Below, one piece after another: positions 8,997 through 41,578 of a stretch of DNA of 64,000 bases. Both the position numbers and the translations under genes were made by a program. Each line of letters begins with the position of its first letter. Within the stretch, counting starts at the first letter, position 1. The stretch spans positions 496,001-560,000 of the forward strand of contig JBBPFI010000003.1 in assembly GCA_037974965.1 (NCBI GenBank). Direction: 5' to 3'. The notes below the pieces were generated by a model. That model ran no database searches and was not told the origin of the DNA. It saw only the letters and a program-made list of their open reading frames with translations. Origin of the DNA: Dacryopinax spathularia. Lineage: Eukaryota; Basidiomycota; Dacrymycetes; Dacrymycetales; Dacrymycetaceae.

Positions 8997-10582
8997 ACAA
9001 AAGGTTTGCGGCGAGCGCGGACCTCGAGCGCGACTAGAGACACCTGCCTTGTCCCAGAAGACGGTCGTCGGTGAGCGCGTCCGGTTGCGGAATTGCTTCC
9101 CTGGCCGGAGCAGCGCGCTCATTATCCATTGGGTGGCTGTGCGGGACCTGCGTCCTGCGCCGAAATGGACCAAGGAGTCGTGGGGGGCGGGGCTCGATCG
9201 AGCGCACTCGAGGATGACCCGCTGGGGGAGTAACCCACCGCATTCCCGAGTTGGGGCCGTTACAGCCCATGCACTATCCAAGCACAATGAAAGTCAACAA
9301 TCTTTCTACGCTCACATTCCACCTTCTCCCCAGAAACGGGAAATGCCCCCGTGTAATAAAGTTGCCTTTTGTTCGTCTCGGTCATGGGCACAAATTTGCG
9401 TTGCCCGAATCGTCGTCATCGTTGGTGGGATAATGAGCCCGAGTACATCCAATACTTGAACATCAAACATACCACCTCTCGACCTCTTCGTCGCTGTAAT
9501 GCGCTTCATGACAACGCGTTCATGCAGCAATCCTCCAACTTGGCTGAGACATGGTGTCGTTTCATCGTTGTCGCGTTCGCTGATCGTCCCTGGACGCGCT
9601 CACCGCATCGTCTAACCTCGTCTCATCTGTCGTTCCGTCCCATTTTGTTCGCCGAACTCCCTGCGTGCAGTCTCTATCGAACTTGTCGACGGTGAACTGT
9701 TCACTTGCAGGATGGATGGACTCGTCAGTCGCTTGCGCATCAGAGCTTATTCCACCCTGGCCGACGACAGCCACTGCACCTCACAGCGCTGCACACAACG
9801 TGCCACTTGCAACATAGATTACGTTGTTAATGTTTGTTACATTGGTATGTGCTAGATACAAGTGAGGACGAAACCCTCGCAAAGAAATCCCAGCACGAAG
9901 CTGAGGAGGTTCCAAAAAGTAAGGCCAGGGCTCCGCCTCCAGCCCTCGCAGCCTGTCGACCCACGTCGGCAATGGGTCCTGTGCCATAACGGCACCCACC
10001 AACGGCCACTTTGGGACATGAAGCGTCCATACGCGGCCACTTTGGGCCACTTTGGGACATAAGCGTCCATAAAACGGCCACTTTGGGCCACTTTGGGCCA
10101 CTTTGGGATGCTGTGATGTAAGCGCACGGATGAACTCACCTGAACAGTCCACGAGGGCCACTTTGGGCCACAATTCAAACCGGCCACTTTGGGCCATAAT
10201 TTCTGCAGGCCACTTCCCGGAGACAGAGGTCAAGCACATGTCGAACTTGCAAAACATCGAAGACGGTTCAAGAAGGAACAGCGTTGGGGAAGGATGCCGG
10301 GTGACGCGGACTCAGACTTGAGGGTGGGAGGGGGAATGGAAAGGGGTGCTCTGTCGTGTCGCGGGGAGTTCGACCAGGGTTTAAGTATGCTGCACAGCGA
10401 CACGCGAGCCGCAGTTGCGGCAGCAAACGAACTTCAGGGTGAGCTCGTGTCTGCCGTGCAGTAACGGAGGGAGCGCCAGCTGGCCCAAAACGGAAAGGGC
10501 GGCGTTCTCTCTGGTCGGGGCGAACCACTCCGCCGTGGACCTGTTCACCGCTGCTTACAACATTCTGCCCCTTCTGATAGTC
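8997..10582 (-). repeat. Repeat block copy A, head to head with the JmjC gene
   Basis: This block matches, in inverted orientation, the DNA at 39995-41578 (copy B) almost base for base over long stretches. For example, one 78-codon frame near the outer end differs between A and B at a single residue. The outer edge is sharp: the match stops at 8997 here and at 41578 in copy B. Reading away from the JmjC gene, the block holds a TATA-like site (CATACTTAAACCC, near 10380-10390), an array of AAGTGGCC motifs (10001-10220), and about 1 kb of further conserved sequence. No terminal inverted repeats were seen. Open frames exist but are broken up or differ between copies, so a spliced or non-coding transcript cannot be told apart by eye. 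Confidence 0.85.
10001..10220 (-). repeat. AAGTGGCC motif array of copy A
   Basis: Read on the minus strand, the octamer AAGTGGCC recurs about nine times, alone or in head-to-tail runs with a 12-base period (CCCAAAGTGGCC). Runs are separated by short spacers that also repeat (TATGGACGCTTATGTC type). The array lies about 160-380 bases downstream of the TATA-like site. A related but clearly different array sits at the same place in copy C. Confidence 0.85.
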
Positions 10583-13112
10583 ATGTGGTCTTCCTCTTAT
10601 CGAGCTGATCGGCGCTCCCGGTCCCCGTCGAGACCTGTCGGGGATCGTTATCCGGATACTCCACGTCGAGATCTGTCCAGAGCCCGTCTCCAGGATGCAT
10701 CTCTCTTGCCGGCTGCTTCAGAACCCCGGCGATATCAATCTGGATGCTGGCTTTGTACAGGAGCCCATCACTGGCAGAGCTGCCCACTCCGTCCCGAGCT
10801 ACCCCCGGAAGTCCTTCAGGAGCAATTGCGCCGTGGCAAGGCTCTCAGAGACTCCCGAAACGCCTGGCATTACAAGGTCGGAGCAAGGCGAGGTACGTCT
10901 TTTCCCATCGATCTTGTCAGTCATGATGGTCTTTTTTCTGAAAAATCGTATATTGCAGCGGTCACCAACACCCACCGCGGCAACCAACCAGTTGAAGATA
11001 TTACGCGCCGACTCGACGCTCTTCACCCGGACGTGTCCAGGAGTGCTACGCCGCCAACTGCGAGCTACGCAACAACGAACACGCTGGTGCAGCTTCCACA
11101 ATCTCCCTCTGTACATCGCCCGAAGGCCGTCGACAGTATTGAGTGGGACATGCCCACATTACAAGACTATAGAACCCAACGCGGATTCTCATTTCAAGGA
11201 ATGCCAACCAAAGTACGTTCATCCCGCTAGAGCGAAAGCGTGGTGACTGAAACTCAAATAGTGGATCTCGAAGCATTGCATCAGGCCTATGGAATCCGCC
11301 TCCTTGCCCGCTAGAGAAGACCCAAAGCTGAAGGTGTTCTATGCCGACGAAGATCTGTCGAATGTGGCTGGCCTTCTCCAAGAACAACATGTCGTCGTCA
11401 TCCGCGGCCTGGAAAGTTTTGATTGCGAGAGCCTTGGCGACCTTCTCCGCTGGCAGGGCGTTCTGGCGCCCGAGGAAGAAGGGGAGATGCATAGCTTCAT
11501 AGGTATGCAAACTCTGCTGCGCCTTTGTCGACTCAGCACATGCTACATCATTGTCAGATCAACGGAATCTTTCGAAACAGCTGCATGCTGTCCGGATGGA
11601 GGAAGCCGACCAAGTGCACGCGCATCGTATGGATCACCACTCAAGCGATACAGAGTCAGAATACGATGAGGAGGAAGGCATTCACGTTTCTCGAAGCCTT
11701 CAGGAATTTTGCCAGTTGGCCGAGGACCCATCTGTTTGCCTGAACCTGCTAGACCAGGCCTTTCCATTCTACAACTGGCCTCGTTGCCTGTGGTATGTGT
11801 TACCCGTGGGCTGGAGTGACATACTGAGCATCTGTAAAGGTCATTAGCGCAACAGACTTGCCAGTTCCGCGTGAAGAACCAAACTGAGGCCACAGGCGAT
11901 GACCGTGCCCTCGAAGAGTCGTGGCTCGTTGCAAGCCACGCATTCTCCTTCACTCCCACGCACCACGACACCGGTGCGTGGAGTACCTTCACGCACATCT
12001 TGAAGGGGTTGAAACAGTGGTACTACTTCCGAATGAGCGATGAAGGCGAGGCAGCACTCGGACGCGACCCAGAGGCTGTGATGTTAGACATCTTGTCATA
12101 CAACCCAAACCGGATGTCTCGGTGGGGCCAATGGTACTATGTTCCTCTTCATGCTGGGGACGGCTTGTGAGTGGTTTCATTTCACATGAATTCAGCATAC
12201 TCATGGCTTGTAGGATAAGCTTCCCTGGACTGCTGCATTGTGTGGTCACGCTAGAAGACACAATCATGGCCGGCAAGCATTTCGATCTCCCCGACTTCAA
12301 CCGCATGGAATGGGTACTGCGGGAAGAAGTGGCATGTGGTCATCGGTCAACCAATGCCAGCCGGCCAGGAGTCTTCAATTCGCTGGCCTTGTACGCTTGC
12401 AGGCTCTCGGCCGACACCCCTCCATCAATACTTCCTGGTACGCATGTCCACCACAGCTGCAGACAGCATGCTAAACAGTTTGACAGATGCACAGCTTGTT
12501 TCGCTGTACCGGATTCTGACACATCAAAACGAGTACGTTTCGTCCGCAGAAGGAGAAGATCGCCAGAAGCACGACCGCTGGTGGCGATTCCTTGTCGTGC
12601 AAGAGGCCCTTCGCTGGCTCAACAAGGAGAAGGGGTATCCACGGGACAAGTCGCAAGCCGAATGGGTCGACATCAACGCCGGCGAGCTCGGACACATGTC
12701 GACTTTCCTCCCAGCACGACATGGTTCGGATGTGCATCTTCTGCAGAATGCCATGTCCACCCTGGAGAAGATCTTCAAGCATCGCAGGCTACCCTACGAC
12801 GACATCAGACCGGCGATCACGACCTACGCGACTATCAAGAGGAGCGCCCGGAAGAGAAAACCAGATGGTGATCGGAAGGATAAGAAAGGCAAGGGCAAGT
12901 CAGAGCCACGAGAGAAGAAAAAGAGCAGAACGGGCACGACTTCCCGGTCGAACAAGATGGCGATTCATCAATCTCCGGCAGGACCGAGCAAGCCGAGCGC
13001 GTCGAGGTCGAATAGTGCGACCCAGTGGGCAGAGGAGGAAACCTACGTCTTGAACTACAGTTCAGACCTCACGGATATGGAGGAGGACTCGGACGAAGAG
13101 GGGGATCCGTGA
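10583..13112 (+). CDS. JmjC-domain protein with N-terminal zinc knuckle
   Basis: Eight exons (10583-10892, 10959-11212, 11262-11502, 11558-11792, 11840-12166, 12214-12313, 12361-12437, 12479-13112) give 725 residues with no break. The Ser/Arg-rich start is followed by a knuckle-like C-x2-C-x3/4-H-C motif (CWLCTGAHHWQSC, residues 55-67). The JmjC core has the iron-binding H-x-D as HHD in FTPTHHDTGAWSTF, a likely oxoglutarate lysine in LKGLKQWYYF, and the second histidine in FPGLLHCVVTLED. The C-terminus is Lys-rich, then acidic. JmjC enzymes are Fe(II)/2-oxoglutarate oxygenases that demethylate histone lysines or hydroxylate proteins; the substrate here is unknown. The gene starts back to back with repeat copy A, and the similarity between copies runs through its first codons. 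A decayed relative lies at 37.6-38.7 kb. Confidence 0.85.
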
Positions 13113-14225
13113 GCGCGAGTGTAAGCGGAGAACGACGAGAACGAATGACCGAAACCGTGTCCCCGCTCCCGCAATGAAAACCTTGTATATGATTGCCTGT
13201 TGCTGAATCCATGCCAGAGTTGCCATGTCCGATATAACGTGCAGAGCGCCAGCACTCAATTGCAGGGGCGCCTTTGAAGTCGAGGATGTAGACGGTTGGC
13301 AGGAGCTAACAACAGATGCCTTAATCCGGCAAGGCTGTGCGCCGCATCGATGATGGCAGACAATGACAATACAATGCATGCATGCGCTGGCAACAGCGTC
13401 TTTCCTTGCTGGTTGGCGCTGACAGAGCACGGCCGATAATATGCGAAGACAGGACGCAGTTGATAGTCCAAGCAGATCGTATATTAATGATTAGGCTATT
13501 TTAACATGCGATAGGAAAAAGCTCGCTGAAACGGTCCGGTTATGTACATGAGGTCAAGCATCGGAGAGGAGCACGGAAGCCGTACACCAACTCCACACAT
13601 ATATGTATGACAGTGCGGGGAGAATCGGCCAGGCGATGCTGAGTACCGATGGTTGGAGCGTTCGTCGTTAAGCCGCGGGAAGAGGCTGGTTTGACGATGC
13701 GCGACGCAGGAACAAACGAATAACAACAGGAAGAAGGCATACACATGGCAGGGGGTGCGAGCGGTCAACGAGCACGTATTAAGCCAGGTTGAGAAGGATA
13801 TAGGGTAGAAGGAAAAGGCAGTGTACAGCAAAGCGGCCAGCAATGCGATGCAAGGGAAACAGCGAAGAGCAAGAAGTTCGAGGATGATGAATCGCAAAAT
13901 AGAGCCGGATAAGGAGACTAGGCGCAGGAATGTTGTGGACAATATCGTTGACGGAGGCATGTTTCGAGCCTTCCGCGGCATTTCGTATGCGTGAGTCGGT
14001 GCGTGAGTCGAGGGGTGTATTAGTCTCCATATATGCAGTGCGAAGACTGGCCGACCAATCCGTTGGGGTTAAGGGCCGGTAGTGTAAGCAGTACTTGCTA
14101 GCCGATGTATCGGGAGATGCCGAAGACGAGACCGTGTCAGGGGTAAATGGTGGACAGCACGACAATGATGCGCTATCAGACGGTATCACCCGTAGTCCAT
14201 CAAATTCTTTGATGCAGGCGCAATC
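13113..14225. other. Intergenic region after the JmjC gene
   Basis: About 1.1 kb between two convergent genes. Open frames on the minus strand (for example 13779-14189) show no motif, no domain and no plausible start, and I read them as chance. Probably two 3' untranslated regions and spacer. Confidence 0.5.
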
Positions 14226-14922
14226 TCACCCTCGCCTTGGCGGCGAAGGGCGGCTCCTCCCCTGAGGCGGGTCACCCAGACTGAGGAAGCTACTGCCCTG
14301 CGGAACTTCACCATAGCCATTCAGCTGAGACGGATGAGGACGGTACTGAGGGTGTTGCTGGGCAGGCGAGGGGCGACCCTCTAGACGAGCAAGCGCGGCG
14401 GTGCGGGCATCGGTCGGGCTGGCGCCGTATGATGCAGCGGTCGGTGTGCGGGCGTGTCCCGGAATAGGAGCTCCGCGGGCGGGTGGAGGAGGGGTGCCGT
14501 AAGGGGGTGACGAGTAAGCCGACGGAGGGAGCGAAGGCAGAGCGTGACTGGGAGCCGGAGCAGGAGGAGGGATGTTGGCGTGTCTGGTATGCGGAGGGCG
14601 GGAGGGCACGCCGTGCGGTCGCACAGTGGGTGTAGGTGACACAGCACGAGCCGCTTGAGAAGTAGGCCTAAATATATGCGTCAGATAATGAACGAATGAA
14701 GGCGATCACGAGGGGGACGCACCGAAGAGAACCAACAAAGGAGGACATGCTCGCATCCGTGTCATCGCCAGACTCGGACGGATCATCGACATCGAGGAAA
14801 GAGGAGGACGAGGATGCCACTGGTTGAACGGGGCGCCTAGATGCAGGGTCGGCCGCATAGAGACCCCTGGTAAAGAGGTCTGAATATTCTGAGCGCTGAG
14901 GTGCCTGAGGGGTGGCCATCAT
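14226..14922 (-). CDS. Proline-rich protein of unknown function
   Basis: Two exons separated by one short intron near 14668-14722. Exon 1 starts at the ATG at 14922 and encodes a Ser-rich segment with an acidic patch (FLDVDDPSESGDDTD). Exon 2 is very rich in Pro, Ala and Ser (for example PSLPPSAYSSPPYG) and ends in PSPPRRG. No domain is recognised. Low-complexity content and a C-terminal GSSFLSLGDPP segment are all that can be seen. The stop at 14226 sits inside a possible splice donor (GTGAG), so a further exon downstream cannot be excluded. Function unknown. Confidence 0.5.
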
Positions 14923-15808
14923 CGTAGAGTGGAGGGGTTGCTGAGGTCGTGCAGGTTGCAGAGAGGGCACGGCAGTGGCAGAACGGTAGAGCTGTAGAGG
15001 GAGTCGGGGGGATGAAGGCTAGGGGGAGGGAGTTGGGGTGGACGGGAGGGAAGGGGGCAGTGGAGAGATTATAAGGTGTTCAAGGAAGCAGAATTGAAGG
15101 CTATAAGAGGAAAGTGATGAGAAGCGCGTTGGAAGTGCGCAGTGTGCGTGGGCAAAGAGGTCGGAGGCGTGACCGAAGGAGGCAGGTGAGTACCCAAAGA
15201 CGGCGGAGGAGGGCAGAACCGAGCGGCGGGGGCTGGCAACGAATTCCGCTCGCAACGGTCCCACCGCCTTTTTCACGTCAAAGTGACCCAAAACGCATCA
15301 CCCCGTTCCCAAAAGAAGAACGCGAGGCAATGCACGGCCGGACTGAACGGCACCGGCACTCACCCAAAGATGGCAGAACACGAGTCAGGCGGGATCAGAT
15401 GTTCCCAATTCTCCTCCCAAACCCATTAAAGTTTGGGTAACCACACACACACGCTCGAACGTGGCGGCCCTGGCAACCACCGAAATGCCGCCCACGTCAT
15501 CCCTCTGCGTCAGATCCCGCTCGGCCAGCAACCCGCTCCCAGAAGAAGAAGAAGCGTCGTGGTTGCTTCCGTGCCTTAGTCGCCCAACCACATGCCGCAA
15601 ATTCGGTTCGTCCATGGCAACCGGACCCCAGCATGAGCCCCTTGATCCCCCCCGGCGGAAACCGCTTCCTGCGCCAGCAACACATTGCAATTTACATTAC
15701 AACTTTTGTTCCTCCTAATGCTAAGTCTCAGCATCCAGCAGTAACACAATATACGACGCACAATGAAAGGCATCAGCAACACTCCCAGCACTCTGCTGCG
15801 AGGCCAAC
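14923..15808. other. Intergenic region with pyrimidine/purine-rich tracts
   Basis: Upstream of the proline-rich gene. Holds purine-rich tracts near 15000-15110 that would form a CT-rich leader for that gene on the minus strand. No gene recognised. Confidence 0.45.
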
Positions 15809-16070
15809 ATGTCCGCGGGTCACCGTCGACACTCGGCGGACAACAAGCTATTCCAGTATCAACGCTTTGAAGACGCACAGCCCAGCGCCACACCTTCTGG
15901 TCGAACAGTTCGCCGTGTACCAGCGCTAACAGTGCCCCATTCCCCATTTTTCATGTCTTCGGAAACCCCACAGCTCCCGATGCTCGATCGGCTTCCCCGT
16001 CAGCTTCTTCGGTAAGGGTAGGCCCGGCCACGATCGGTTGCAGGTTGACGTGCAGGACCCGTTCGGGTGA
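15809..16070 (+). CDS. Possible 52-residue hypothetical protein (three exons)
   Basis: A tentative model: exons 15809-15914, 15974-16011 and 16056-16070 join in frame into 52 residues that begin MSAGHRRHSADNKLFQYQRF and end SASSDPFG. The splice sites are canonical (GTGTAC...CAG, GTAAGG...CAG), but the second intron is only 44 bases. The peptide is basic and Ser/Pro-rich with no known domain. It may be chance; the only support is the tidy splice structure and an ATG in a reasonable context. Confidence 0.22.
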
Positions 16071-17447
16071 AGCCTTTGGAAAGCACCGGCTGTCTCGCAC
16101 CCGTTCTGCGCCGGGGGTTGTCCACCGTTGACGCCCCCACCCAACGGCGCCAGTGTCCAACCTTTCATTCATACTTCGGGATGGCGAATCTCCAGAGTTT
16201 CTGCCTTACCCAGCGATCTCTGTGCTGCTAGTCATCGCCATCTGTTAAACTGGAGCCGCAGCTCCTCAAGCGCCGGGGTTCCAGGACTTCGCACCGATGG
16301 GTAGATACCGGGAAATGCTATCTGTCTTTTGCGCCTATCCATCGCCATCCCTCGCACGATCGGTCCTCGTCCGAAGCACCGCATTCCGGAGCGAGCCCCA
16401 TCCGGCTCGATGGGCAATTCCAAAATCACGCCCGTGCGATGAATTGGTTTGTTTACGTACATTCACTCGCAGGGCGCGAACACCCATCCTGCTGACCAAC
16501 CCAGCTGTCGCATTATCAACGCTCACTCATCATCCAGCATCGAGTCAGCGAGCATCATACAGTCAGGAAGAATAAACAATATCAAGATCCGTCCGCGGCT
16601 TGTTCGGTGCATCCGAATGCGGTGAATAGAGAGCATCAAGATCGCGCAGGCTCGGGTTTCTGAGAAGCCAGCAACGACAGAAAGCGCTGACAGCTCGTCC
16701 GGCTTCTTCGCACGGTTCTGCTGGGCGCTAAGCCCGCTTTAGAAGCTACAGACTCCGATTAGAGGTCACCGGGAAAGCGCGTGGTTCTTGGCATGTACCC
16801 CGCAGCAGGCGGGGCAGTGCAGAACGTGCGCTTCTGGCTTCTCTGGCTTCTCCAACTGGGGAGGGACGAGTCCGAAGCGGCCGCACCTCGCCGAGCAACA
16901 ACGTATTCAAGCTGACCAACTTGGCAGCGGCTGACAGCTCAGCCTGCCCCTGCCAGCTGGAGTCAGCCAAGTGTATAAAGCCCGTAGGTGTGCAGACAGC
17001 GGACGTCAGCATCAGATGTTTCAGAATCGTCAACTTCTTAGCTCGGGAATAAGACATCAGTATCGAGCATCTGGATATCGGGATCGGGCTAGTCTTGTTG
17101 TGCGCTCCCGGCAACTTGGCAGCCTGTCAGCGGCGGGCGAAGGGAAGAAATCACAGGCGGGGGAAGCGTTGCTGAGAAAGGGAAGATGCGTCAAAGTGGA
17201 TCCGTTAGACGCGTCGTCCAATCTCCGCTGTTGGGTCGCGTGTTCTTCCCACGTCTACCTCGCAATCCGCAAAGATCGGCAGACCATTTCGACATCTTCC
17301 ACGCCATTTCTGGTGCTGTCATTGCCCAACTTTGGAGGGAAACAGCTGACTTTCGTGACAACGGGACACGAGTCGAATCTGCTCCCGTCCGACGCGTTCA
17401 TTCCTCCCCGAACGCGCACGACGCGTCCGACATCGACTGAACATACG
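16071..17447. other. Intergenic region upstream of DAD3
   Basis: About 1.4 kb. Several open frames on both strands lack motifs or conserved-looking composition. The last few hundred bases before 17448 should contain the DAD3 promoter and leader. Nothing else supported. Confidence 0.45.
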
Positions 17448-18016
17448 ATGACAACACCGAACGCTGCACGGCCGTCGACCGCGGTCATCCCAACACAGGC
17501 AGACGACGCCGTCCTCTCCCAGAACCCGTATGCATCACATCCGCAACTATCGCAGCTGGAGGGTGAGGTGTTATGGGAGTACGCGAAGACGGCGCGGTTG
17601 GTACGAAAGGTGCGTCTCATTGTCAGACATCTACATGCGCGAGCTGACGAGTTGTCCGGTCTTGCTATCCGACTTCTGCTCCTTCTTCCACGTGTACTAT
17701 GGCTTGTCGACGTACTTCAGCTGTCTGGAATTGCCAAGGAACTAGGTGGCCGGCCGAACGAAGAACTTCTGGCGCAGCTTCGCATCCTAGAGCGGAAGAT
17801 GGGGCTCGTGCTGACTCTGGTGCGTTCTCTTCTTGGAACATTTGTATATGCTAGCTAACGTACTGCCCCGCATAGTTCAAAGCGAGCGTATGGGCCGTCA
17901 TCGTCGAAGGCGAGGAGGCGGAGCAGGAGATGCTCGCGAAGCAGCAGGAGGAGGAGGCGCGCCGGTCCGCTTTACAGGAAGGGTCGTACGCCGGCGAACA
18001 GGATGCATATGCCTAG
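17448..18016 (+). CDS. DAD3: DASH complex subunit Dad3
   Basis: Three exons (17448-17609, 17721-17819, 17876-18016) give 133 residues. The central signature matches Dad3: NPYASHPQLSQLEGEVLWEY, then an AKTARLVRK helix, then LLAQLRILERKMGLVLTL and FKASVWAVI. Dad3 is one of the ten small subunits of the fungal DASH/Dam1 complex, which forms rings around microtubules and couples them to kinetochores. An acidic, Gln/Glu-rich tail (EEAEQEMLAKQQEEE) follows the conserved part and is longer than the yeast protein needs. The first intron (111 bases) is the longest of the gene. The start is the only ATG before the conserved block that fits the frame with normal spacing. Confidence 0.9.
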
Positions 18017-30140: not shown

Positions 30141-30524
30141 CGCCTCAGAGAGCCCTCCATCCGGCTTATGCTTATCGCACAATTGCATGCTCCCGGAAGT
30201 AGAACGGGCAAAAGCACCGGGTGATCCGAACACGTCTTGTCACCCTTGGGGCCTTGGGTCCCCCTTTCTGCTCTCTAACGAGTCACACGGCTGTATTGGA
30301 TCCTACATTCCTGTCTCCTGTGACTGGAGCGTGTGGTACTGTGAGTGCCATTAGCGTGCATGTGGAAATCGACGGCGATCCATGACGAGCCCGAAAGGGC
30401 TCCTGTTCCGGCGGTGAATGATCGCGGCTTCCATCCGCCGGTCCTCCCTCCTCGTGAAGAAGGGAAATGAGCCTAAGCGGCCGTAAGCCGGACTCTGAGG
30501 CCTCCTAACCGGGCAGTCATCCCA
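30141..30524. other. Upstream region with a perfect GNRA hairpin
   Basis: Holds the upstream promoter of the metallothionein gene. At 30388-30403 there is a perfect 6-bp stem closed by a GAAA tetraloop (GAGCCCGAAAGGGCTC). No coding sequence recognised. Confidence 0.45.
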
Positions 30525-31012: not shown

Positions 31013-32859
31013 CTATTGCAGGGTACCGAGCATCTGCCTAGCGAACTCGCGAGCGTTTCCGGCCGCCTCGGTGTACTTAGCCAAGAAGAACTCGTCGCTT
31101 GGACCTGAGGAAGCGGGTTAGACTATGCGAGACCACACCCTTACGCTGACTGGAAGAAAGGGGGAAGCGGACGTACGACTGTGCATGACTAGCCCATTAT
31201 GCCACGTCTCGTACCAACCCCTGGCTGCTTCTATACCGAACTCGTGCGGCACCGCGAACCCTTTCAGGCCCTTCGCGTAGTACACTTGGTCCTTGTGACG
31301 CGGTGCATATCCACCAGCAACCGCGTCCCTCCAGGAAATTTCTGCGCCGATTGCTTCTCGCAACGGCAAAGGAGTGTTCCACCGCGTATGAAGGGCCCCA
31401 ATAGCTCCAAGGATTACCCCTCGTGACTAGAGCAGTACACGTCAGTAGGATCATGGGAGGAGAAGAAGGTAGCGTACTAGCTGACGGGTCCCAATAGCGT
31501 ACTCTAGGAAGAGTCGTGGTATTGACAAGTCATACGACTTGATAGGGAAGAATTGCGGATCGCGGTACACTGAGTTGCAGTAGAACGTTTGGTAGTCGTC
31601 AATTGCAAACATCACAGGAAAGCTACGACGGGTCAGCCAGGAGCCTGGACTACACTGGAAAATACGTACTCTGTCTGCCTCCCCAGCTGGTCCAGAACCG
31701 CCTCCAGAACGACCACCTTGTCCGTCTCAGGCTCCAACCCTACATCCACTAGTCTCTGCAGTGCGCCTCCGGCTACAAAAGTCTGCCCCTTGTCGCTATA
31801 AACAACATCCTGATCGACTTGGATGTTCGCCAAGGCAGCGGAGTTCACGACTTGCAGGACTTTGAGGAGATTATGGGCAATCTGTGGTTGCTGGAAAAGC
31901 TTCGTTCGGGGATCGTAGTGGTAGGGAGAGGTGGAGTTGACTATCTCGGTACTACGTCCGATATACAGGACGACCCATCCATTTTGCAGACCGTACGTGA
32001 CGGCTTGCATGAGGAGTGTGCTCTTGCCACAACCACTTGGACCATCTAGCTCGGGGTTCAGTTCCAGTTTATTGCAGGCGAGGAATGGACGCACGTAGAA
32101 CGAGTCCCGTCGGTTCAGCACTTTCTCTCACTTGATCCTTTAACTGATGCAACTCTCCCACCAGCCGCTCAGTCGTCTCGGTCACCACGGAGAACGGCTT
32201 GGAGAAATATTCCTGCTGGAAGACAGGCTTCGTAAATGCGGCAGTCTAAATCCAAGGTCATTCAAGATGGTACCACAAGTGGGCAGATCGCGCTCACCTC
32301 CCAAGTGGCCCTCCCAGGTAGCCCAGAAACCTTGAAGGCTTTCAAGGCGACGTCGGGATAGGCCCATGGTTCACCAACTTTGAAGGGAACAAGGCTCTCC
32401 TCCTCTATCGCCTCGCCTCCACTCATTAACTGTTCAAATGTCTGCTGGAGCTCTGATTTGAGCTGCGGCATAGGCAACTCCGGCTTCGTAGGCTTGAACC
32501 ATGCTGCGTCAACCTCGGCGTAGTTTACTTGCGGCTGAGAAGGATGTCAACAATCGTGGGCCTTTTCAAAGACTGAAAGTCACGTACAGGGTTCCTGTGC
32601 GGCGGCTTCGCCCTTCCCTGGTCTACCTTCTTCTTGAAAGCAGGCTTGACACCTCGTGTCTGAGTCTTTGGTAGCTGAGCGCTCGCTGGGAGGAAAGTGA
32701 GCAGACGGAGGTGACCGTTAGCGGGAACGAAGGCACACCTTTCTCCGCTTTATGCTGTACCCGGGACGTCGATATGCTCCTGGTACATAGCTGACCTTGT
32801 ACCGAGGTAGGATATAGGAACACGAGCGGTCTCCGGAGCGTGTACGCCATTGCCGACAT
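31013..32859 (-). CDS. DAP3: Mitochondrial small-subunit ribosomal protein mS29 (DAP3/Rsm23)
   Basis: A multi-exon gene of about 450 residues. The ATG at 32859 opens a typical mitochondrial presequence (MSAMAYTLRRPLVFLYP ... CTRSISTSRVQH). The conserved part has YAEVDAAWFKP, the P-loop GPSGCGKSTLLMQAV, then GWVVLYIGRSTEIVN, and near the end AGNAREFARQML. DAP3/mS29 is the GTP-binding protein of the mitoribosomal small subunit and is also linked to apoptosis in animals. Two other frames are open over exon 1, but only this one gives a presequence and continues through the first intron in phase (KAEK to ASAQLPKTQ). It shares a 224-base divergent promoter with ARPC1. Confidence 0.9.
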
Positions 32860-33083
32860 TGAGGTCGGCGGTGGACGCGGAATTTGGGACGACGAGCGCG
32901 ACGAAATTGGCAGCCCTGAACCGTCCGGAAGCAGTTGGAAGGCAGGGAACGCCACAGCATCGAGTCGCAGTGCGCGCGCATGTACGGTGCATCATCCTAC
33001 TCTCTTTCTTACCATCCACCTTCCGGAGTAGACTGCTAGTCCTCCGACAATATACTTAAAAACAACCGCAATCATCCGCAAAC
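32860..33083. promoter_or_regulatory. Divergent promoter between DAP3 and ARPC1
   Basis: Only 224 bases lie between the two start codons. The ARPC1 side carries an AT-rich stretch (ATACTTAAAAACAA, about 35 bases before its ATG). No other element stands out. Shared promoter function is inferred from position. Confidence 0.4.
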
Positions 33084-34354
33084 ATGTCTACTCCTGACGT
33101 GTACTCGCTCTCGCAAGGACCCATCACGAGTCATGCGTTCAATGCTGATCGGTCGCGTGAGTGCGCAACTTGAACCAGCAGTACCTATCTGATCGTCTCA
33201 TTAATCAGAGGTCTGCGTCAGTCTCAACTCGAACGAGGCCCAAGTGATGGCCTACGACGGCCGAGAATGGAAGACGACCGAGACGCTGTCCGAACACGAC
33301 AAGCTGATCACGTCTATCGACTGGGCACCCAACTCGAACCGGATCGTTACCTGCTCCCAGGACCGGAACGCGTACGTCTGGACACAGGTATCGGATCCCC
33401 AGACTGGAGAAGTTACGTGGAAGCCTGTGCTCGTGCTTCTGCGGATCAACAGGGCTGCGACTTGTGTTCGCTGGAGCCCGAATGAGGACAAGTTCGCCGT
33501 TGCGAGCGGGGCGCGGTACGTATATGCGGCGCTTCCTGGGTTGCCAATGGCTTATTGCTCGTGCTAGTGCAATCGCCATCTGCTCATTCGATGAGGAGAA
33601 CAACTGGTGGGTTTCTCGTCACCTCAAGAAGCCCATCCGCTCTACCGTCCTGTCGATCGACTGGCACCCGAACAACGTTCTTCTTGCGGCGGGCAGTGCG
33701 GATTCGAAGGCTCGCGTCTTCTCCGCTTTCATCAAGGACGTCGATAGGCGCCCTGGTCCTACCATCTGGGGTGACAAACTGCCATTTAACACTATCTGTG
33801 GCGAATACGCGAGCCCGAATGGCGGCTGGGTGCACAGCGTCGCCTTTTCCCCGTCAGGAGACGCGATGGCTTTCGTCAGCCACGACTCGTCGATCAACGT
33901 CGTCTACCCGGGTGGACCAGCCGTCATCTCCATCAAAATGTCGATCTTGCCGTACGTCACCCTCACCTGGACCTCGGAGGGCTCCATCGTTGCTGCCGGA
34001 CACGACTGCCAGCCGCACGTCTACCACGGCTCAGAAGACGGCTGGGCTATGGTCGGCTCACTGGACAGCTCCAAAGGGTCGCAGCACAAAGCTGGCTCAC
34101 GCCACCAGATCGAGGCCTTCAACCGGTTCCGTCAAGCCGACTCGCGGGGCACGCAGAACGAGGAAGACAGCGAGCTCTTGCCTACAGTTCACCAGAACAC
34201 GATCACGAGCGTGCGCCCCTTTGAGGGCGCTCCTGGTCAGGTGACAAGGGTTAGCACCAGCGGCGTGGATGGCAGACTGGTCATATGGGATGCGAATGCT
34301 GTTGGCCAGCCTGTTGGCAACTTGGCGGGGAAGCTGGCTGGCATGAGGGTTTAG
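33084..34354 (+). CDS. ARC40: Arp2/3 complex subunit 1 (ARPC1/p41-Arc)
   Basis: Three exons (33084-33156, 33209-33515, 33568-34354) give 388 residues. It is a WD-repeat propeller: [30 protein letters not shown], then [22 protein letters not shown], and [11 protein letters not shown] at the end (shown here as joined repeat cores). ARPC1 binds ARPC4/5 in the Arp2/3 complex, which nucleates branched actin at endocytic patches. The insert before the last blade ([21 protein letters not shown]) is typical of this family, where it contacts nucleation-promoting factors. The start follows from the conserved [20 protein letters not shown] and the match across intron 1 (NADRSQVCVSLN). Confidence 0.95.
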
Positions 34355-34895
34355 ACCAGCTGCCACGTCGAGTGCCGTTGCTGTTGATAGCCACTTGTGC
34401 GCATGGTCAGCATGCGGGGTGGGTGCGTCAGCAGAGGAATAATGTTGAATGCAGATAAGACCCCTACGCTGAATACTAGGTCGTAATGGATAATCATTGC
34501 CTCTGGCCTTGTACTCAGCCCGTAGTAGGCTCAACATTATGCATGGGTCCAATTATTCGTTGCTATTTTTGAGCCGCCCATCGTGTGTGCCACTCTGTTA
34601 CGTGCCGGTTGCATGCCCCTTTTACCGGCATCTCCCTCCCGCAGTTGCCCCTGATATGAGTAGATGGGGCTGTGCAGACGCTCCCCATACCGTCGGAAGG
34701 TCGTCCTCGCACTCCCTATCGCTCACCACTCTCTCATCGTCACCGTCAACGGCTTACTTCCCCATCCTATTCCAAGCCTCGTCCCGCCTGTCACATATAC
34801 TTATATACCTTCCACCACTCCTCGGACACTCAGCAGGTCGCCGCCTCTCTTTCCCTTCTTGTTGCTACTATCTATCTATCCTCTCTACGGTAACC
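34355..34895. other. Intergenic region between ARPC1 and UBC6
   Basis: About 540 bases holding the ARPC1 3' region and the UBC6 promoter. The last 200 bases are pyrimidine-rich with a TATA-like ATATACTTATATACC near 34795-34810, which suits a leader upstream of the UBC6 ATG. No coding sequence. Confidence 0.45.
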
Positions 34896-36020
34896 AATGG
34901 CGTCAAAAGCGGCCCACAAGCGGGTATGTCTTACCTCCGCTGTTCGCGGTCAAGCACGGGCTGATTGTCTGGCAACGCACAGCTCACTAAGGAATACCTC
35001 GCGATGCAAAAATCGCCCCCTCCGTTCGTTTGGGCCGCTCCGGACGAGAAGAACATCCTGAACTGTGCGTGTATTGTACGGGATGTGGGTGTTTCAGTGC
35101 TGACTAGCTTATGACAGGGCATTATATCCTCGTACGTGACCCGACATCCTGCATCCTTCTGTGCTGGACTCCCGTTAAAACTCTTCTGTAGCGTGGTCCG
35201 CCAGATAGCCCGTACTATGGTGGCGAGTACTATGGCATGCTCACCTTCCCTTCCGACTATCCCTTCAAACCGCCTGGCATCAAGGTGCGCCGCTTTTGTT
35301 CAGGCTGGGTCGGAACCGCTAACCGACTATGATCCCTGTGCATTAGATGATTACTCCAAGCGGGCGGTTCCAACCAGACAAGAAGATCTGTACGAGCATG
35401 AGCGACTACCATCCCGGCACTTGGAATCCGGCATGGAGTGTGGCGACCATGTACGTCTCATGTCGCTGCCTGACCTACCAAGTTGCTAACGGCTGCTCTA
35501 GTTTGACTGGGCTCTTATCCTTCATGCTGTCCGACGAGATCACCACTGGGTCCATCACGACGACCGACCTTGATAAGAAAGCGTTCGCTAAGAAGAGCCA
35601 CGAGTACAACCGGGGGTTGAAGAAGTTCAGGGAGATGTTCCCTGAGGTGCGCTGGCTTCTTCCTCCACCTGCAACTCGCCCTGACTGCGCATACAGTATG
35701 CCGAGGAACAGATGAAAGACTTGCCGAACATGGGAGAGGCAGCTAGAAGCCAAGAGACGAAGGCTGCAGTCGCCTCCGCTGACGCGAGTGCATCGACTAC
35801 GACGGCCGTTGCACCTCCTGACACACGAAACGACGCAGAACCGAGTGCGCAGACCAAGCCTGCAGGACAGACAGCGGTTGGAAAGACAGCACCGGCGCCT
35901 GGTCAGCCGCAGGTAGTACCCGCGGGATGGACCGGTCGCTTACGAGTCTTCACCGCTAGGTGGCGCTATCTGATCGTTATCGCGCTCGCTGTGCTGGTCA
36001 GCCGGGCGCTCTCTGGGTAG
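34896..36020 (+). CDS. UBC6: ER-anchored ubiquitin-conjugating enzyme Ubc6 (UBE2J type)
   Basis: Exons begin 34896-34922, 34983-35064 and a 14-base exon 35118-35131 (completing WHYIL), followed by three or four more. The E2 fold is clear: [51 protein letters not shown] (the TPSGRF version that replaces the HPN motif in Ubc6 enzymes), and the catalytic cysteine in [16 protein letters not shown] disordered linker precedes a single C-terminal membrane segment ([17 protein letters not shown]). Ubc6 works with the Doa10 ligase in ER-associated degradation and is tail-anchored in the ER, matching the hydrophobic end. Start: first ATG, directly in front of the conserved N-terminal helix. Confidence 0.95.
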
Positions 36021-36212
36021 CTGATTCGCCCGTCCACCGCCCCTGCCCATTGGAGCTCGTCTTTCTCATGTCGCATCATAGTTTGACCAGCATGTCGCCC
36101 TCTTCGTTCGCACTTCATTCTGTACAACTTACATCTTCACGCACCGCTTTGTAACACCTGTACAGCTTCAGTTGCGGATAATTGTACCGGAATTCATCAG
36201 GATAGTCATCCG

Positions 36213-36970
36213 TTATGGATTGTGCGGTTCCTCGACCCATAAGCGCTTCACCTTGCCCTCTACGCCCCCGACGAGCGGTCCAACCCTCTGCCAGATAGCG
36301 CTCTCAACGTCCTGCAAGCTCCATCCCGCATCCAGCTGCACCCATCCCTCCGTGTCCTTCTCTAGCTGCTTGAACCACCCCCTCACACGCTCCTGCATCT
36401 CCCGCTTCTCATACCGCTCCTCGCCGTACCCTCCTCGCGCAGCCGCCGCCTCAGGGCTGATATCGAGGAACAGGACGAGGTCCGGCGCAGGCAGGCCAAC
36501 GTCGGGAGCACGACACCAGTCCAGCGGAAGACCCTTCGAAGCAGAGAACGCCACTCCGGAAAAGGCGTATCGGTCGGCAATGACGGTCGTACCCTGCTCG
36601 AGGAGCTGATGGATACGCGACCTGCCAGCCTGATCAGCTTCGGTATAGACGCGGAACGATGACAGACGTACGCGAGCTCCCAGCGGTTTGCAGAGAAGAG
36701 AAGATGGATCGCCCGGTCGTCCAGCTCGGATTGGGACCGTAGGTAGTCGTCAATCATCTTCCCTATGGCAGTGGTACGGTCTACAATACGCGTTGTCGAT
36801 CATGAGCCTGGTCCTCCTAAGGATGCGATGCGGTAATAGGGCTCACCGGGGAACTTCAGGAGCTCGACAGGCCGACCCAGCGCTGAAATCCTAGCATGAA
36901 GACGAGCGGTTTGGGTGGACTTGCCCGACCGGTCAAGTCCTTCTATGACTATGAATGCGCCTCGAGACAT
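36213..36970 (-). CDS. CDC8: Thymidylate kinase
   Basis: A gene of about 220 residues with a few introns. Motifs: P-loop FIVIEGLDRSGKSTQ, then RTTAIGKMIDDYL, the lid/substrate part HLLFSANRWEL, then ADRYAFSGVAFSASKGL and the DR-Y signature, and PDLVLFLDISPEAAAARGGYG. Thymidylate kinase phosphorylates dTMP to dTDP and is essential for DNA synthesis. The start at 36970 is fixed by MSRGAFIVIEGLD, standard for the family. The gene is tail to tail with UBC6, with 192 bases between stops. Confidence 0.94.
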
Positions 36971-37599
36971 GATGGACGCATGATGAGGGGAGACGTGCGA
37001 TGAGACATGGACGCGTCGCGCTCTCGCACAGGGCAGCGAATGCTGGCATGGACCTTGTGCAATATTATCCTCTTGCTGGACTCTCGATATATTTATACTC
37101 ATCAAATCTGCTGCAAGTCAAGTCGTCTCATTCAAACGGATTCTGCCATGTGATTTCAAGGAGTAACGACGGTTTTTACATGCCATTCCCATGATTGTAC
37201 GATACTTGGACGTCCTGGACATGCACGATTGGACCGGCTTGCTTTCACCCTTGGCAACCTCGTCTGCTCTACCCGCCTGCTTCAGCGCCTTCTTTGTCCT
37301 CCCTGCTCTTGCTCTGTGGGCCAATGCTCGTGGGCCATGGGGACGCTGATATTATGCGGAGGACGGTCGGCCTGACGTGGCTGGGACCGACAGACTCCAT
37401 GTTGTCGCAACTGCTTGGTTTGGTCTGTCACCAAGTTGGAAGGGAAGATGCCGAGTTGGAACGATGTTTGGCCCATTGATTCCTCCTAACCTGAGGTTGA
37501 CATCTTCTGGGACTTACTCCTCTTACCATCAGATCTCCGTTATTGTCCAGCGGCACAAGACCGCGTGTGCCGAGGCTAAGCGGGAAGCGAGTCGAGTGT
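36971..37599. other. Intergenic region between CDC8 and the JmjC remnant
   Basis: Contains the CDC8 promoter side; an AT-rich GATATATTTATACTC occurs near 37086-37100. No gene recognised. The JmjC remnant may extend into it, but similarity cannot be followed by eye. Confidence 0.4.
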
Positions 37600-38749
37600 C
37601 CACTTGTCGCACGCCTGCCCGTTGCGCCGCAGCAGATGCGCTTCTTGTCTCGTAGAGCTTTCGATGACTTGTCGAAGATCTTCTCGAAGGTCTTGAGCAT
37701 CCATCTGGCGTTTCAGTGGATGATCAATGATGCCGAGCGCGCGCAGCTCTTCCGACAGACTGGCTGATCCGCCAAGTATGGGTATGTCATCAGTTGCTGG
37801 GCTGGCTGTTGTGCTTACCTCTGAAGCTATCTGACCTGGTCTCGCTGATGCGACGGGATGTTGTGACCATGGAGTTCATCACTCAGACCTTCTCCGTCAA
37901 CGCTTTCCAACCTACGTAAACAACGACATGTCGCTCGAGAAGGCCGTCCGCATTCGGAAGAGCTTCGTCCGCATCGAATACGCTGAGTATCGAATCTTCT
38001 CTGGCCGGCAACGAGCAAGCTGAATGGGCCGATGAAGTCCTCTGAGATGCGCTAGGAGAAGGCCTGTCAGAGAGTGCAGGCGGTCCATCGCTCCGCACTC
38101 ACCACCGTAGACATCCCTTCGAGGCAAGAACCGCATTCCGTCCTATATCACTGTCACTGAGGAACATCCCAAGCCATGCCTTCTTTCACCGGCTCTTCGG
38201 GCGGGTTTTACGCAAATCGAGCCGAGTAATCGCCCTCTACGATGTGCCCTCGAATCACCTTCACACATCGTCGAGTCGGGGTTGCGACTGTGCGGCCGGC
38301 TCGCATCGGGCCCAGGAGCAGTTTCTTCTCCTGACAGCCCAGCCAATCCGAAGTTAAGCAAGGGTTGCGATCTATGAGAAGAAGTGGCTCACCGGGCAAC
38401 GCAGCCCCCTTGAGGCTGTAGTGCTTAGCATTCTGGGCGTCACGCCGTGCTTCCCACGGAGAAAACGCTAATGAGTTTCTCCTCAGGTAATTCTTGCTTT
38501 GGACCGTACTGGTCAGAATGAGGAGCTACGACGTAGAGCCCGCACTTGGCCCGGTATCGCCCTTGGGAGAAGAGTTCGGAGCTGTTGGGATATGGGGGAG
38601 ATACGTTTGCGAGCGTTGCTCAAGAGATCACGGGCAGTGATCACGTCGCGGTCGAGAGAAATGACAGGATTGTCCTTAGAGCTGTCTGGAGCGACGGGAA
38701 TGAGATGAGGTAGATGACAGAGTATGACTTGGTTTGTCCCCGCTGACAA
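37600..38749 (-). pseudogene. Decayed copy of the JmjC/zinc-knuckle gene
   Basis: Three islands resemble the intact gene at 10.6-13.1 kb in the same order on the minus strand. First, an N-terminal part next to repeat copy C (about 38513-38749). Second, SLPAREDSILSVFDADEALPN..GLLERHVVVYV (about 37880-38030, in pieces) against SLPAREDPKLKVFYADEDLSN..GLLQEQHVVVI. Third, MLKTFEKIFDK (about 37670-37700) against MSTLEKIFKH. In the intact gene the second and third islands are about 1.4 kb apart; here they are about 0.3 kb apart, so the whole catalytic JmjC core is deleted, and stops interrupt the rest. It is clearly non-functional. Its position, head to head with repeat copy C, mirrors that of the intact gene with copy A. 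Confidence 0.7.
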
Positions 38750-39920
38750 TAACCAACGTCTTAGGCCAGGGAGGAGCTGCCTCCGCTACTGCACCGCCGC
38801 AATCAAGTCCAAAGCTCCTCCAAGAATGCTCAGCGGCTCGCCCTAAAGTCGGTTTGATGCCGCAGCGGCGGTCTGTGCGACTCCCTGCAGCATATTTAAA
38901 CCCGCCCAGGTCCGTCGTACCCTGACCATCCTCCCTCTTTCCCGCGCATCCATCACCCTTGCTCACAATTCGGATGTCGTGTGGCCTTCGTGGCTTTACC
39001 CTCTAGTGGCCCCCGTGGACGCTATCCTCCTCTTTCCCACACATCCATGACGCTTGGATGTCGTGTGGCCTTCGTGGATCACTCCTTAGTGGCCCTCGTG
39101 GACGTTCTTCCCGAGTGGCCTTTGTGGACATCCACCCCTGACCCTTGTGGTAGCTGCCGAATGTGGCCTTCGTGGTGCTTCCCCCTTGTGGCCGCAATGG
39201 ACATTCACCAACAGTGGCCCTTGTGGAACGATGTCCGAAGGTGGCCTTCGTGGTTGTCCATCTCCGTTAGTGGCCGACGTGGATACTACCCCGGGTTGAT
39301 CCCGGTGGGTGCTGCTACAGCACATCTGGGCCCATGCTTCGGCATGGGTCGACGGGTTGAGAGGACAGAAGGCGTGTCCTGGCCCAATTTTTGGAAACCC
39401 TGTCCGCTTCATGCTGGGCAATTTCTTTACACCCTCTTCGTCATTTGTTGCTAGAACATGCCATCATAATACACGCGTTAGCAATGAAATCTATTGTGCA
39501 GCAGATGCGGTCCATCCTGTTTGTCTGTCTAAAATGTAGCAGCTGTCAGTCAGGGCGCCTCTCTGCAGTACGAAGCTCCCGTGCGCAAATGACTCTTGGA
39601 CTGTTTTACTGCACAAGCGGATAGTGGAACTCAGACGTGTGTGAGACAGAATGAATGCAGTAGAATGTGTGACAAGAGTGCTCTCGCTGATGGATGAGAG
39701 CAGACAAGACGAGGATAAGGTTGTCTGACAACCGCGTCGGCCCGTTCCGACGATGAACGACGCAATGTCTCAGGATTCTTGGCGCACACAGAGGAATGCT
39801 GCATAAACGCGTTGCCGTGGATCGCATTACAGCAACGAATTTGGGTGAAGAACGTTGAGTCGGTGTGTGATGTCCTCGACCAATTGGTTGACGCGATGTG
39901 GAGAGGTATCTAAGTGGATC
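38750..39920 (+). repeat. Repeat block copy C (diverged)
   Basis: A diverged relative of copies A and B in the same orientation as B. Shared landmarks in order: the promoter-side block (GCTGCCTCCGCTACTGCACC against GCTGCCTCCGTTACTGCACG), the TATA-like CATATTTAAACCC (near 38891), a GTGGCC motif array, the block GGGTCGACGGGTTGAGAGG ... TTTTTGGAA, and GCTGCATAAACGCGTTG against GCTGCATGAACGCGTTG near 39800. It ends near 39920, where copy B begins, and lacks the last part of the block. It is much older than the A/B pair. Confidence 0.75.
38972..39285 (+). repeat. GTGGCC motif array of copy C
   Basis: About ten occurrences of GTGGCC, most followed after two to four bases by GTGGA or GTGG (pattern GTGGCCTTCGTGGA), spaced irregularly by about 20-45 bases. 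It sits where A and B carry AAGTGGCC runs, but the spacers are different and there is no 12-base head-to-tail run. Confidence 0.8.
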
Positions 39921-39929
39921 ATCTGGATT

Positions 39930-41578
39930 CGGTTCCCGGCAGCTCACGACGGCGACGGCGAGCGTCGATCAGCTCGAGATGAGGAAGACCACATAACTAT
40001 CAGAACGGGCGGAACGTTGCAAGCAGCGAAAAGCGGAAAGGTCGACTACGAACTGGTTCGCCCCAGCTAGAGAGAACGCCGCCCTTTCCATTTGCGGCCA
40101 GCTGGCGCTGCCTCCGTTACTGCACGGCAGCCGCGAGCTCACCCTGAAGTTCGTTTGCTGCCGCAACTGCCGCCCGTGTGTCGCTGTGCAACATACTTAA
40201 ACCCTGGTCGAACTCCTCGCGACACGACAGAGCACCCCTTTCCCTTCCCCTTCCCACCCTCAAGTCCCCGCGTCACCCGGCGTCCTTCCCACACTGTTCC
40301 TTCTTGAACCGTCTTTGATGTTTTGCAAGTTCGACATGTGCTTGACCTCTGTCTCCGGGAAGTGGCCTGTGGATATCATGGCCCGAAGTGGCCGGTTTGA
40401 ATTGTGGCCCAAAGTGGCCCTCGTGGACTGTTCAGGTGAGTTCATCCGTACGCTTACATCACAGCATCCCAAAGTGGCCCAAAGTGGCCCAAAGTGGCCG
40501 TTTTATGGACGCTTATGTCCCAAAGTGGCCCAAAGTGGCCGCGTATGGACGCTTCATGTCCCAAAGTGGCCCTTTATGGGTGCCCGGTTTTGGCACAAGG
40601 GCCCATTTTCGTCATGGGTCGACAGGCTGCGAGGGCTGGAGGCGGAGCCCTGGCCTTACTTTTTGGAACCTCCTCAGCTTCGTGCTGGGTTTTCTTTTCG
40701 AGGGTTTCGTCCTCATTTGTACCAGCACATACAAATGTAAAGCGCATTAACAATGTAATCTGTGTGGTCAGCGACATCCATTGTGTTCAGCTAGGTGCAG
40801 CCGCTGTCGTTGGCCAGGGTGGAATAAGCTTCGATGCACAAGCGACCTACGAATCCATCCATCCCGCAAGTGAACAGTCCGCCGTCGACAACGTTGATAG
40901 AGTCTGCACGCAGGGAGTTCGGCGAACAAAAATGGACGGAACGACAGATGAGACGAGGTTAGACGATGCGGTGAGCGCGTCCAGGGACGATCAGCGAACG
41001 CGTCAACGATGAAACGACACCATGTCTCAGCCAAGTTGGAGGATTGCTGCATGAACGCGTTGTCATGAAGCGCATTACGGCGACGAAGAGGTCGAGAGGT
41101 GGTATGTTTGATGTTCAAGTATTGGATGTACTCGGGCTCATCATCCCACCAACGATGACGACGATTCGGGCGACGCAAATTGTGCCCATGACAGAGACGA
41201 ACAAAAGGCAACTTTATTACACGGGGGCATTTCCCCCGTTTCTCAATAGAGAGTGGAATGTGAGCGTAGAGAGAGGCTTGACTTTCATTGTGCTTGGATA
41301 GTGCATGGGCTGTAACGGCCCCAACTCGGGAATGCGGTGGGTTACTCCCCCAGCGGGTCATCCGAGAGTGCGCTCGATCGAGCCCCGCCCCCCACGACTC
41401 GTTGGTCCATTTCGGCGCAGGACGCAGGTCCCGCACAGCCACCCAATGGATAATGAGCGCGCTGCTCCGGCCAGGGAAGCAATTCCGCAACCGGACGCGC
41501 TCACCGACGACCGTCTTCTGGGACAAGGCAGGTGTCTCTAGTCGCGCTCGAGGTCCGCGCTCGCCGCAAACCTTTTGT
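39930..41578 (+). repeat. Repeat block copy B
   Basis: Near-identical inverted copy of block A. It starts with a stub of the JmjC gene on the minus strand: its ATG at 39994-39992 and about 16 codons (MWSSSSRADRRSPSPS against MWSSSYRADRRSRSPS), then a stop. Next come the head-to-head spacer, a TATA-like CATACTTAAACCC (near 40192), the AAGTGGCC array (40355-40580), and about 1 kb ending sharply at 41578 with GCAAACCTTTTGT. A 272-codon minus-strand frame inside it (40768-41586) is broken in copy A and is not taken as a gene. Confidence 0.85.
40355..40580 (+). repeat. AAGTGGCC motif array of copy B
   Basis: About nine AAGTGGCC octamers, including runs of three and two with a 12-base period, in nearly the same pattern as in copy A. 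Confidence 0.85.

Follow-up and report, generated by a model that had tools for sequence, protein, structure and literature searches.

The 64,000-nucleotide (nt) window of the fungus Dacryopinax spathularia analysed here (contig JBBPFI010000003.1, positions 496,001 to 560,000, forward strand) holds three copies, A, B and C, of a two-part unit, in which a gene for a predicted JmjC dioxygenase stands head-to-head with a block of DNA that bears a TATA-like box, a same-strand array of AGTGGCC motifs and, beyond the array, a stretch that appears to have conserved its folding as RNA. We read the block as a non-coding RNA gene, the divergent partner of the JmjC gene, copied by ordinary local duplication, and give this reading a probability of roughly 0.55; its grounds, all legible in the DNA, are the copy structure, the array and its strand, the conserved folding and the lack of clear amino-acid constraint.

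Three copies of a JmjC gene and its neighbour

All copy comparisons were made within the window. In a self-comparison, A (8997-10688) matches the reverse strand of 41578-39890 with 91.1% identity over 1703 columns, a similarity that runs through the spacer into the start of the JmjC gene. With block B alone as the query, nhmmer retrieved block C (38713-39873, E=1.5e-49); the local B/C score of 272 compares with 42 for the best of 100 shuffles, and in aligned columns C is 59% identical to A and 55% to B. The right border of block C is fuzzy by about 40 bases, lying at ~39840 by its match to A (Table 1) and at 39873-39878 by the nhmmer extension. The copies are evidently of unequal age, C being old and A and B younger. 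A fourth copy was found in the window neither by nhmmer nor by a covariance model built from the three, which scores its own copies at 127-149 bits by construction and its next best candidate at 11.8; that candidate (30376-30496, minus strand, E=0.041 for the whole window) has no run of five U (U5) and no array nearby, and was judged to be chance.

The JmjC gene is intact only in unit A, where the removal of six short introns (47-66 nt) yields a protein of 738 residues; for the fourth intron an AAAG acceptor was picked because it keeps the reading frame intact. JmjC (PF02373, residues 375-475, E=7.8e-05) is the sole Pfam family returned at E values up to 1, at 23.5 bits just under its cut-off of 24, and no TET/JBP profile matches the spliced protein. 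Alignment with the KDM7 homologue 3n9l, which the protein matches weakly (E=0.021), pairs H388-x-D390 and H464 with the H-x-D and distal H of that structure, so that the HxD/E...H signature is present. The aligned iron triad is the likeness to the KDM7 group of JmjC histone demethylases, whereas the level of that match and the slightly sub-threshold Pfam score set the protein apart; by these features it is a predicted JmjC dioxygenase, histone-demethylase-like. Residues 55-67 (CWLCTGAHHWQSC, 10745-10783) look like a zinc knuckle, a domain that Pfam does not report here. A JmjC domain pattern retrieved one viral-contig stretch and 13 bacterial or archaeal ones, none of them a relative by tblastn, from collections that are non-fungal and hence silent on distribution.

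The other two units keep relics. That of unit C aligns with A 11117-11597 at a score of 173, the maximum of 60 shuffles being 52, contains stops and a frame change, and is recovered by tblastn with the 738-residue protein as residues 162-187 and 186-237. In unit B, residues 1-22 (39994-39929, with a stop) and 106-~127 (39907-~39842) survive and the part between them is missing; an extension of this tblastn match beyond residue ~127 (to 141) overlaps block C and is not credible. The right half of the locus accordingly reads as decayed JmjC (minus), truncated block C (plus), damaged JmjC scraps (minus) and block B (plus), and in 3/3 copies the JmjC part is directed away from the block. In our reading two units stand here in tandem, a deletion having removed sequence on both sides of their junction, and unit A, some 30 kb away, is an inverted copy; local tandem and inverted duplication explains the layout.

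An earlier note on this stretch had already recognised the intact JmjC gene beside A, the decayed one beside C, the similarity of A and B that passes the spacer into the JmjC start, C as a real homologue, and a JmjC part pointing away from the block throughout, all of which the comparisons above bear out. Elsewhere its picture needed adjustment. The first JmjC codons that it placed beside B are there, but damaged by the stop and accompanied by the scrap of residues 106-~127; block B ends at 41578 as proposed but begins at 39995 instead of 39930, the JmjC remnant lying to its left; and block C stops at ~39840, not at 39920. The similarity into the JmjC start, claimed for all three copies, holds for A and B, whereas C has no reported match before JmjC residue ~157. 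Finally, A and B were called nearly identical, which suits their 91% average but not its unevenness, with substitutions ranging from 1% to 22% by segment.

A mobile element or a duplicated gene pair

Joint copying of a gene and its neighbour invites a reading as a mobile element equipped with a JmjC enzyme of its own, in the way that some fungal DNA transposons carry TET/JBP, another dioxygenase family (PMC12730594). The sharp outer border ACAAAAGG common to A and B and the presence of copies in both orientations would fit such an element, and a dioxygenase gene copied with adjacent DNA is what those transposons share with the units here. The units differ from the elements described there in their enzyme family, the sole Pfam family being JmjC and not TET/JBP, and in that neither element ends nor a transposase was found: no inverted match of the block's outer 14 bases (up to 3 mismatches) lies beyond the far side of unit A, and no repeat of more than 9 bases links the outer ends with the far flanks of units A and C. 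Terminal inverted repeats and target-site duplications were likewise not found around what is one complete unit with an undefined far end, nor was a transposase domain in the 31 entries scanned with Pfam (30 window stretches, some overlapping, plus the spliced JmjC protein; not every open reading frame, ORF, was among them). All three copies, moreover, lie inside 33 kb. We consider a mobile element very improbable, and this half of the earlier note's proposal gains no support. Its other half, a duplicating gene pair with a non-coding partner, is favoured by the conserved folding and the lack of clear protein constraint described below. The JmjC gene and the block do form a unit in the sense that they were copied together; the idea of a lasting unit is weakened, in that JmjC is truncated or decayed in 2/3 copies while the block keeps its TATA-like box, array and tail.

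A TATA-like box and a one-strand motif array

JmjC gene and block stand head-to-head with about 190 bp of spacer between them, and each block presents a TATA-like box and then the array. The motif WGTGGCC has the sense leading away from JmjC in 29/29 cases (10 in A, 10 in B, 9 in C). Of AGTGGCC itself the window has 28 copies where 9.8 would be expected, and the three blocks account for 23 of them. Spacings of 24-26 nt make up 5 of the 8 in C; one unit of the WGTGGCC-YTYG-TGG type (GTGGCCCTCGTGG) is identical in A and B, which otherwise show chiefly 10-nt and 31-nt steps. The motif is thus maintained as an array while its spacing drifts. Block C also contains an internal tandem duplication (38928-39104, 75.5%), which doubles a CAUCC/GGAUG stem and the first array units.

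The substitutions between A and B are unevenly distributed (chi-square p=1e-19): 21.9% in the JmjC start, 13.0% in the spacer, 4.8% from the TATA-like box to the array, 3.2% in the array, 7.8% in the hairpin tail that follows it, 18.6% in the next 210 bp, 2.3% in a second conserved stretch (region 2), then 9.8%, and 1.0% at the outer end. TATA-to-array and array are slow by this measure, and the tail is intermediate, its changes falling in loops; the lowest values belong to the outer end and region 2. Region 2 lies downstream of the putative RNA. It retains in C 77-80% of the bases shared by A and B at 41006-41076, includes AACGCGTT in all three copies, with an ACGCGT that we take to resemble the MluI cell-cycle box, and gives no structure signal in the three-way alignment scan; its minus strand has a 303-codon stop-free stretch in B, interrupted in A. 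In the outer 288 bp (41291-41578, 8997-9300) A and B differ at 3 positions, far below the rest of the block, and no counterpart was found adjoining C.

A probable folded domain downstream of the array

Comparative folding of the three copies places four hairpins (HP0 to HP3) 3' of the array, with UUUUUGG ahead of the last. HP0 is GUGCC/GGCAC in A and B and GUGCU/AGCAC in C; HP1 has 7 pairs; HP2 is 11 bp long, 5+6 pairs around a 3-nt bulge, three of which are changed on both sides; HP3, the stem-loop 3' of the Sm-like site, is paired in 93.3% of cells, with one mismatch in C. The consensus energy of -43.4 lies well below that of column-shuffled alignments (mean -31.8, standard deviation 3.3; 0/300 as low), and doubly changed pairs number 6 against a mean of 1.7, a count reached by 1/300. 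The named structure has 28 pairs; 98.8% of its 84 cells are paired and 4/28 pairs are altered on both sides, against 1.3 expected (6/500 shuffles reach 4); when the partner strand is slid, pairing falls to 28-50% with zero double changes.

The signal is confined. Over 28 windows and two strands, the scan of the three-way alignment gives a sense z of -4.75 at B 40553-40679, the main signal covers B 40433-40717, and windows from 40630 on range from -1.6 to 1.9. When the B and C rows of that alignment are tested for helices, 5 doubly changed ones appear where 0.67 are expected (0/500), and a control alignment of JmjC A and C with similar identity finds 1 where 0.46 are expected (189/500). Of the 12 columns in which A and B differ at 40573-40690, 10 fall in loops or linkers and the 2 in stems both preserve pairing; in a simple binomial that counts 58/118 columns as stem, P=0.02 for changes sparing the pairing. 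G-U pairs at 5/28 positions appear when the sense strand leads away from JmjC, and since the opposite strand scores too, it is mainly on these that the strand assignment stands. A kissing contact of the HP2 loop with array units, noticed by eye in C, is not kept in A and B and was dropped. A DNA pattern drawn from the domain had 0 matches in viral contigs, a non-fungal collection silent on distribution.

A Sm-like site and known RNA classes

Sm sites have the consensus RAU(4-6)GR in single-stranded form, and in Sm-class RNAs this U-rich site is flanked by a long stem-loop on one side and a terminal one on the other. By that consensus as we take it, the site of C (AAUUUUUGG) fits exactly and that of A and B (ACUUUUUGG) is one base off. 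With 5 copies of TTTTTGG in the window and 4.8 expected, UUUUUGG is weak as a motif alone and gains weight only from its position in the fold; in single-sequence ensembles U5 is unpaired with a probability of 0.44-0.99, and HP3 forms with 0.86 (A), 0.95 (B) and 0.37 (C). The likeness to spliceosomal small nuclear RNAs (snRNAs) and fungal telomerase RNA lies in the stem-loop, the U-rich site (AAUUUUUGG in C) and, at what is presumed to be the 3' end, a terminal stem-loop; the block RNA differs in the motif array of its body, in lacking an Rfam match and in the ACUUUUUGG of A and B.

A 3'-end Sm complex is typical of snRNAs and telomerase RNA, according to PMC3675052. Rfam gave 0 gathering matches in the window and, under permissive settings over blocks B and C (38700-41700), three matches all far under gathering; a known spliceosomal snRNA or other Rfam family was set aside for want of a convincing covariance-model match. 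Telomerase RNA was rejected as well: with a template taken as at least 1.5 CCCTAA repeats, the usual repeat being assumed, no 9 nt of any CCCTAA permutation occur on either strand of the three blocks. The telomerase RNA of Ustilaginales (PMC10035886) is likewise a long fungal RNA with a Sm-like domain, and Ustilago is a basidiomycete; the blocks differ from it in having no CCCTAA template and in standing three times in one window. Fungal structured RNA candidates have similarly come from comparative folding of non-coding DNA (PMC8216456, PMC5640933). In word searches of their main texts JmjC and demethylase each occur 0 times, as does "basidiomyc" in the 15-motif paper. The 17-RNA screen covers 1371 genomes, all Ascomycota, as described in PMC8216456; RNA families of basidiomycetes may be little charted, since this larger fungal screen was confined to Ascomycota. 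The top-ranked matches of the open-access literature included neither a fungal JmjC gene paired with an RNA nor an RNA like the block's.

Table 1. Positions of the features of units A, B and C in the window.
Feature	Position	Strand	Basis or remark
JmjC gene, unit A, intact	10583..13112	+	conceptual splicing, 738 aa
Six introns of JmjC gene A	10893-10958, 11213-11261, 11503-11557, 11793-11839, 12167-12213, 12438-12486	+	conceptual splicing
JmjC relic, unit C, decayed	37730..38203	-	corresponds to A 11117-11597
JmjC remnant, unit B	39842..39994	-	tblastn; residues 1-22 and 106 to ~127; in-frame stop
Block A, with spacer to JmjC	8997..10582	- (RNA sense)	self-comparison, nhmmer
Block B	39995..41578	+	91% identity with block A
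Block C, old copy, cut near equivalent of A 9487	38703..39840	+	nhmmer with B alone; A 9487-9535 = 39839-39791
TATA-like box, block A	10380-10387	-	sequence, alignment; putative function
TATA-like box TACTTAAA, block B	40194..40201	+	sequence, alignment; putative function
TATA-like box TATTTAAA, block C	38893-38900	+	sequence, alignment; putative function
AGTGGCC array, A	10004..10214	-	10/10 WGTGGCC in sense
AGTGGCC array, B	40361..40571	+	10/10 WGTGGCC in sense; spacings include 10-nt and 26-nt steps
Array, C	38980..39275	+	9/9 WGTGGCC in sense; mostly WGTGGCC-YTYG-TGG
Folded 3' domain, A	9886..10012	-	comparative folding
Folded 3' domain, B (HP0, HP1, HP2, U5GG, HP3)	40563..40692	+	comparative folding
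Folded 3' domain, C	39292..39421	+	comparative folding
UUUUUGG, block A, in ACUUUUUGG	9912-9918	-	sequence; putative Sm reading
UUUUUGG, block B, in ACUUUUUGG	40660-40666	+	sequence; putative Sm reading
UUUUUGG, block C, in AAUUUUUGG	39388..39394	+	sequence; Sm-like, putative Sm reading
ORF, block A	from 10257	-	158 aa
ORF, block B	ATG 40318	+	140 aa
ORF, block C	within block C	+	135 aa
Region 2, second conserved stretch	40901..41165 (A 9415-9680; C ~39750-39839)	+	2.3% A/B substitutions

The window is fungal in character, with the short JmjC introns and with neighbours bearing WD40, RNA polymerase III RPC4, thymidylate kinase, DASH Dad3 and mitochondrial carrier domains. A perfect 41-bp tandem repeat (44856-44939, 2.0 copies) lies within the ORF with the RPC4 domain (44812-46104, minus strand), and a perfect 24-bp repeat (2.5 copies) at 62084-62143. 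A tRNA search of the window, run with the bacterial code setting, found none.

Evidence against an RNA gene and the readings it favours

Several observations, gathered here with the alternatives that they favour, weigh against an RNA gene. Those on the fold come first. The opposite strand reaches z -4.48 at 40553-40679 and -5.39 at 40473-40600, and windows upstream also score (-2.8 on the plus strand at 40075-40173, -2.7 on the minus strand at 40035-40133). On pairwise alignments the helix test is weaker (A-C 4/500, B-C 29/500, or 19 with another MAFFT mode), and within the transcript B-C fails (1 helix, 189/500) while A-C holds (1/500). Single sequences fold ordinarily: the tail has z -0.36 in A, -0.17 in B and -1.65 in C, longer stretches 0.10 in B and -1.60 in C, so that only C does modestly better than its shuffles, and the ensembles give lower HP2 0.06-0.39, upper HP2 0.17 in A, HP1 0.24 in B and HP3 the 0.37 in C noted above. 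The covariation is thin because it comes from only three paralogues, two of them close. Nor do the rates help: the tail is only intermediate in A/B divergence (7.8%), windowed A/B divergence is uncorrelated with conservation in C (rho -0.16, p 0.38), and gene conversion could have made the divergence patchy. The small number of sequences, the weaker pairwise tests, the ordinary single folds and the lack of correlation with C suit a plain segmental duplication of JmjC and its upstream DNA, in which conversion produced the patchiness and so few sequences, three in all, gave a false structure signal. A signal that is localised and survives column shuffles, and that the JmjC control alignment does not give, speaks the other way, and we hold this explanation to be rather unlikely.

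Upstream of the TATA-like box, 40050-40160 contains two compensated B/C helices (6/500 shuffles), and this side is also well kept in C, with 0.72-0.82 of the bases shared by A and B. The RNA may start earlier than the box, or these helices may be promoter palindromes, in which case such helices need not all be RNA. Both observations would suit a reading of the whole block as regulatory DNA only, a shared promoter or enhancer with tandem binding sites at the DNA level and hairpins that are palindromes or chance; the array does adjoin the divergent promoter region, and both strands score in it. Yet the paired changes with free loops cluster in the tail, ~370-500 bp from the TATA-like box, G-U pairs occupy 5/28 positions in one strand, and the array is strictly one-stranded, although tandem expansion alone would give the same. 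Regulatory DNA by itself seems to us unlikely.

A small protein translated across the array (140 aa in B, 158 in A, 135 in C) has its own arguments. Blocks A and B both keep a frame open from an ATG, with gaps over HP0/HP1 that sum to a net 3 nt between them; the stop-free stretches are long (179 codons in B, equalled in 8/300 shuffles, and 184 in C, 5/300); and an ungapped alignment of the B and C frames covers 38 residues, 37% of them identical (E=5e-04, a single comparison), the frames agreeing at both ends of the tail, with one base gained and one lost between. Codon by codon, however, 12 of the A/B differences are non-synonymous and 3 synonymous at 327:93 sites, a ratio near 1, with 9/17 changes in third positions, and 13/14 B/C gap runs disrupt the frame, their lengths not being divisible by three. 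The B/C peptide similarity would be roughly what the DNA identity gives in any frame that agrees by chance, and Pfam matches none of the ORFs of A, B and C. The ORF is thus without clear amino-acid constraint, and translation of the block strikes us as unlikely. As regards the Sm-like site, the base ahead of U5 in A and B is C, where the Sm consensus, as we take it, has A.

A proposed divergent pair of JmjC gene and RNA gene

We return to the RNA gene as the preferred reading. On this account the locus would be a divergent gene pair, a JmjC dioxygenase gene and an RNA gene head-to-head over the spacer. The block would be transcribed, from a start after the TATA-like box, into an RNA of perhaps 450-500 nt, both ends being estimates. 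The same-strand AGUGGCC array would give a protein or a complementary RNA a series of sites to bind; by gathering many copies of one partner it may make the RNA a scaffold or a decoy. The domain HP0-HP1-HP2-U5GG-HP3 would form the 3' end, and its fold may end and stabilise the RNA, most simply as a Sm- or Lsm-bound, snRNA-like particle.

Gene and block were duplicated jointly on at least two occasions. The RNA may not need JmjC for its role, because in two copies its half of the unit has survived the damage to the enzyme gene; we take the two as divergent neighbours first, and a working partnership is possible. A bolder version, quite improbable at present, would see here a new class of basidiomycete nuclear RNA, a Sm-bound snRNA-like particle with an array body that acts with JmjC, for example as a scaffold bringing the demethylase, or a partner of it, to chromatin.

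An RNA gene in three copies, with a kept tail fold beside a decaying enzyme gene, would make a cheap and well-defined test case. If it is Sm-bound, an array-bearing type would join a small set of RNAs, and if it is linked to JmjC, it would point to an RNA-chromatin system in fungi.

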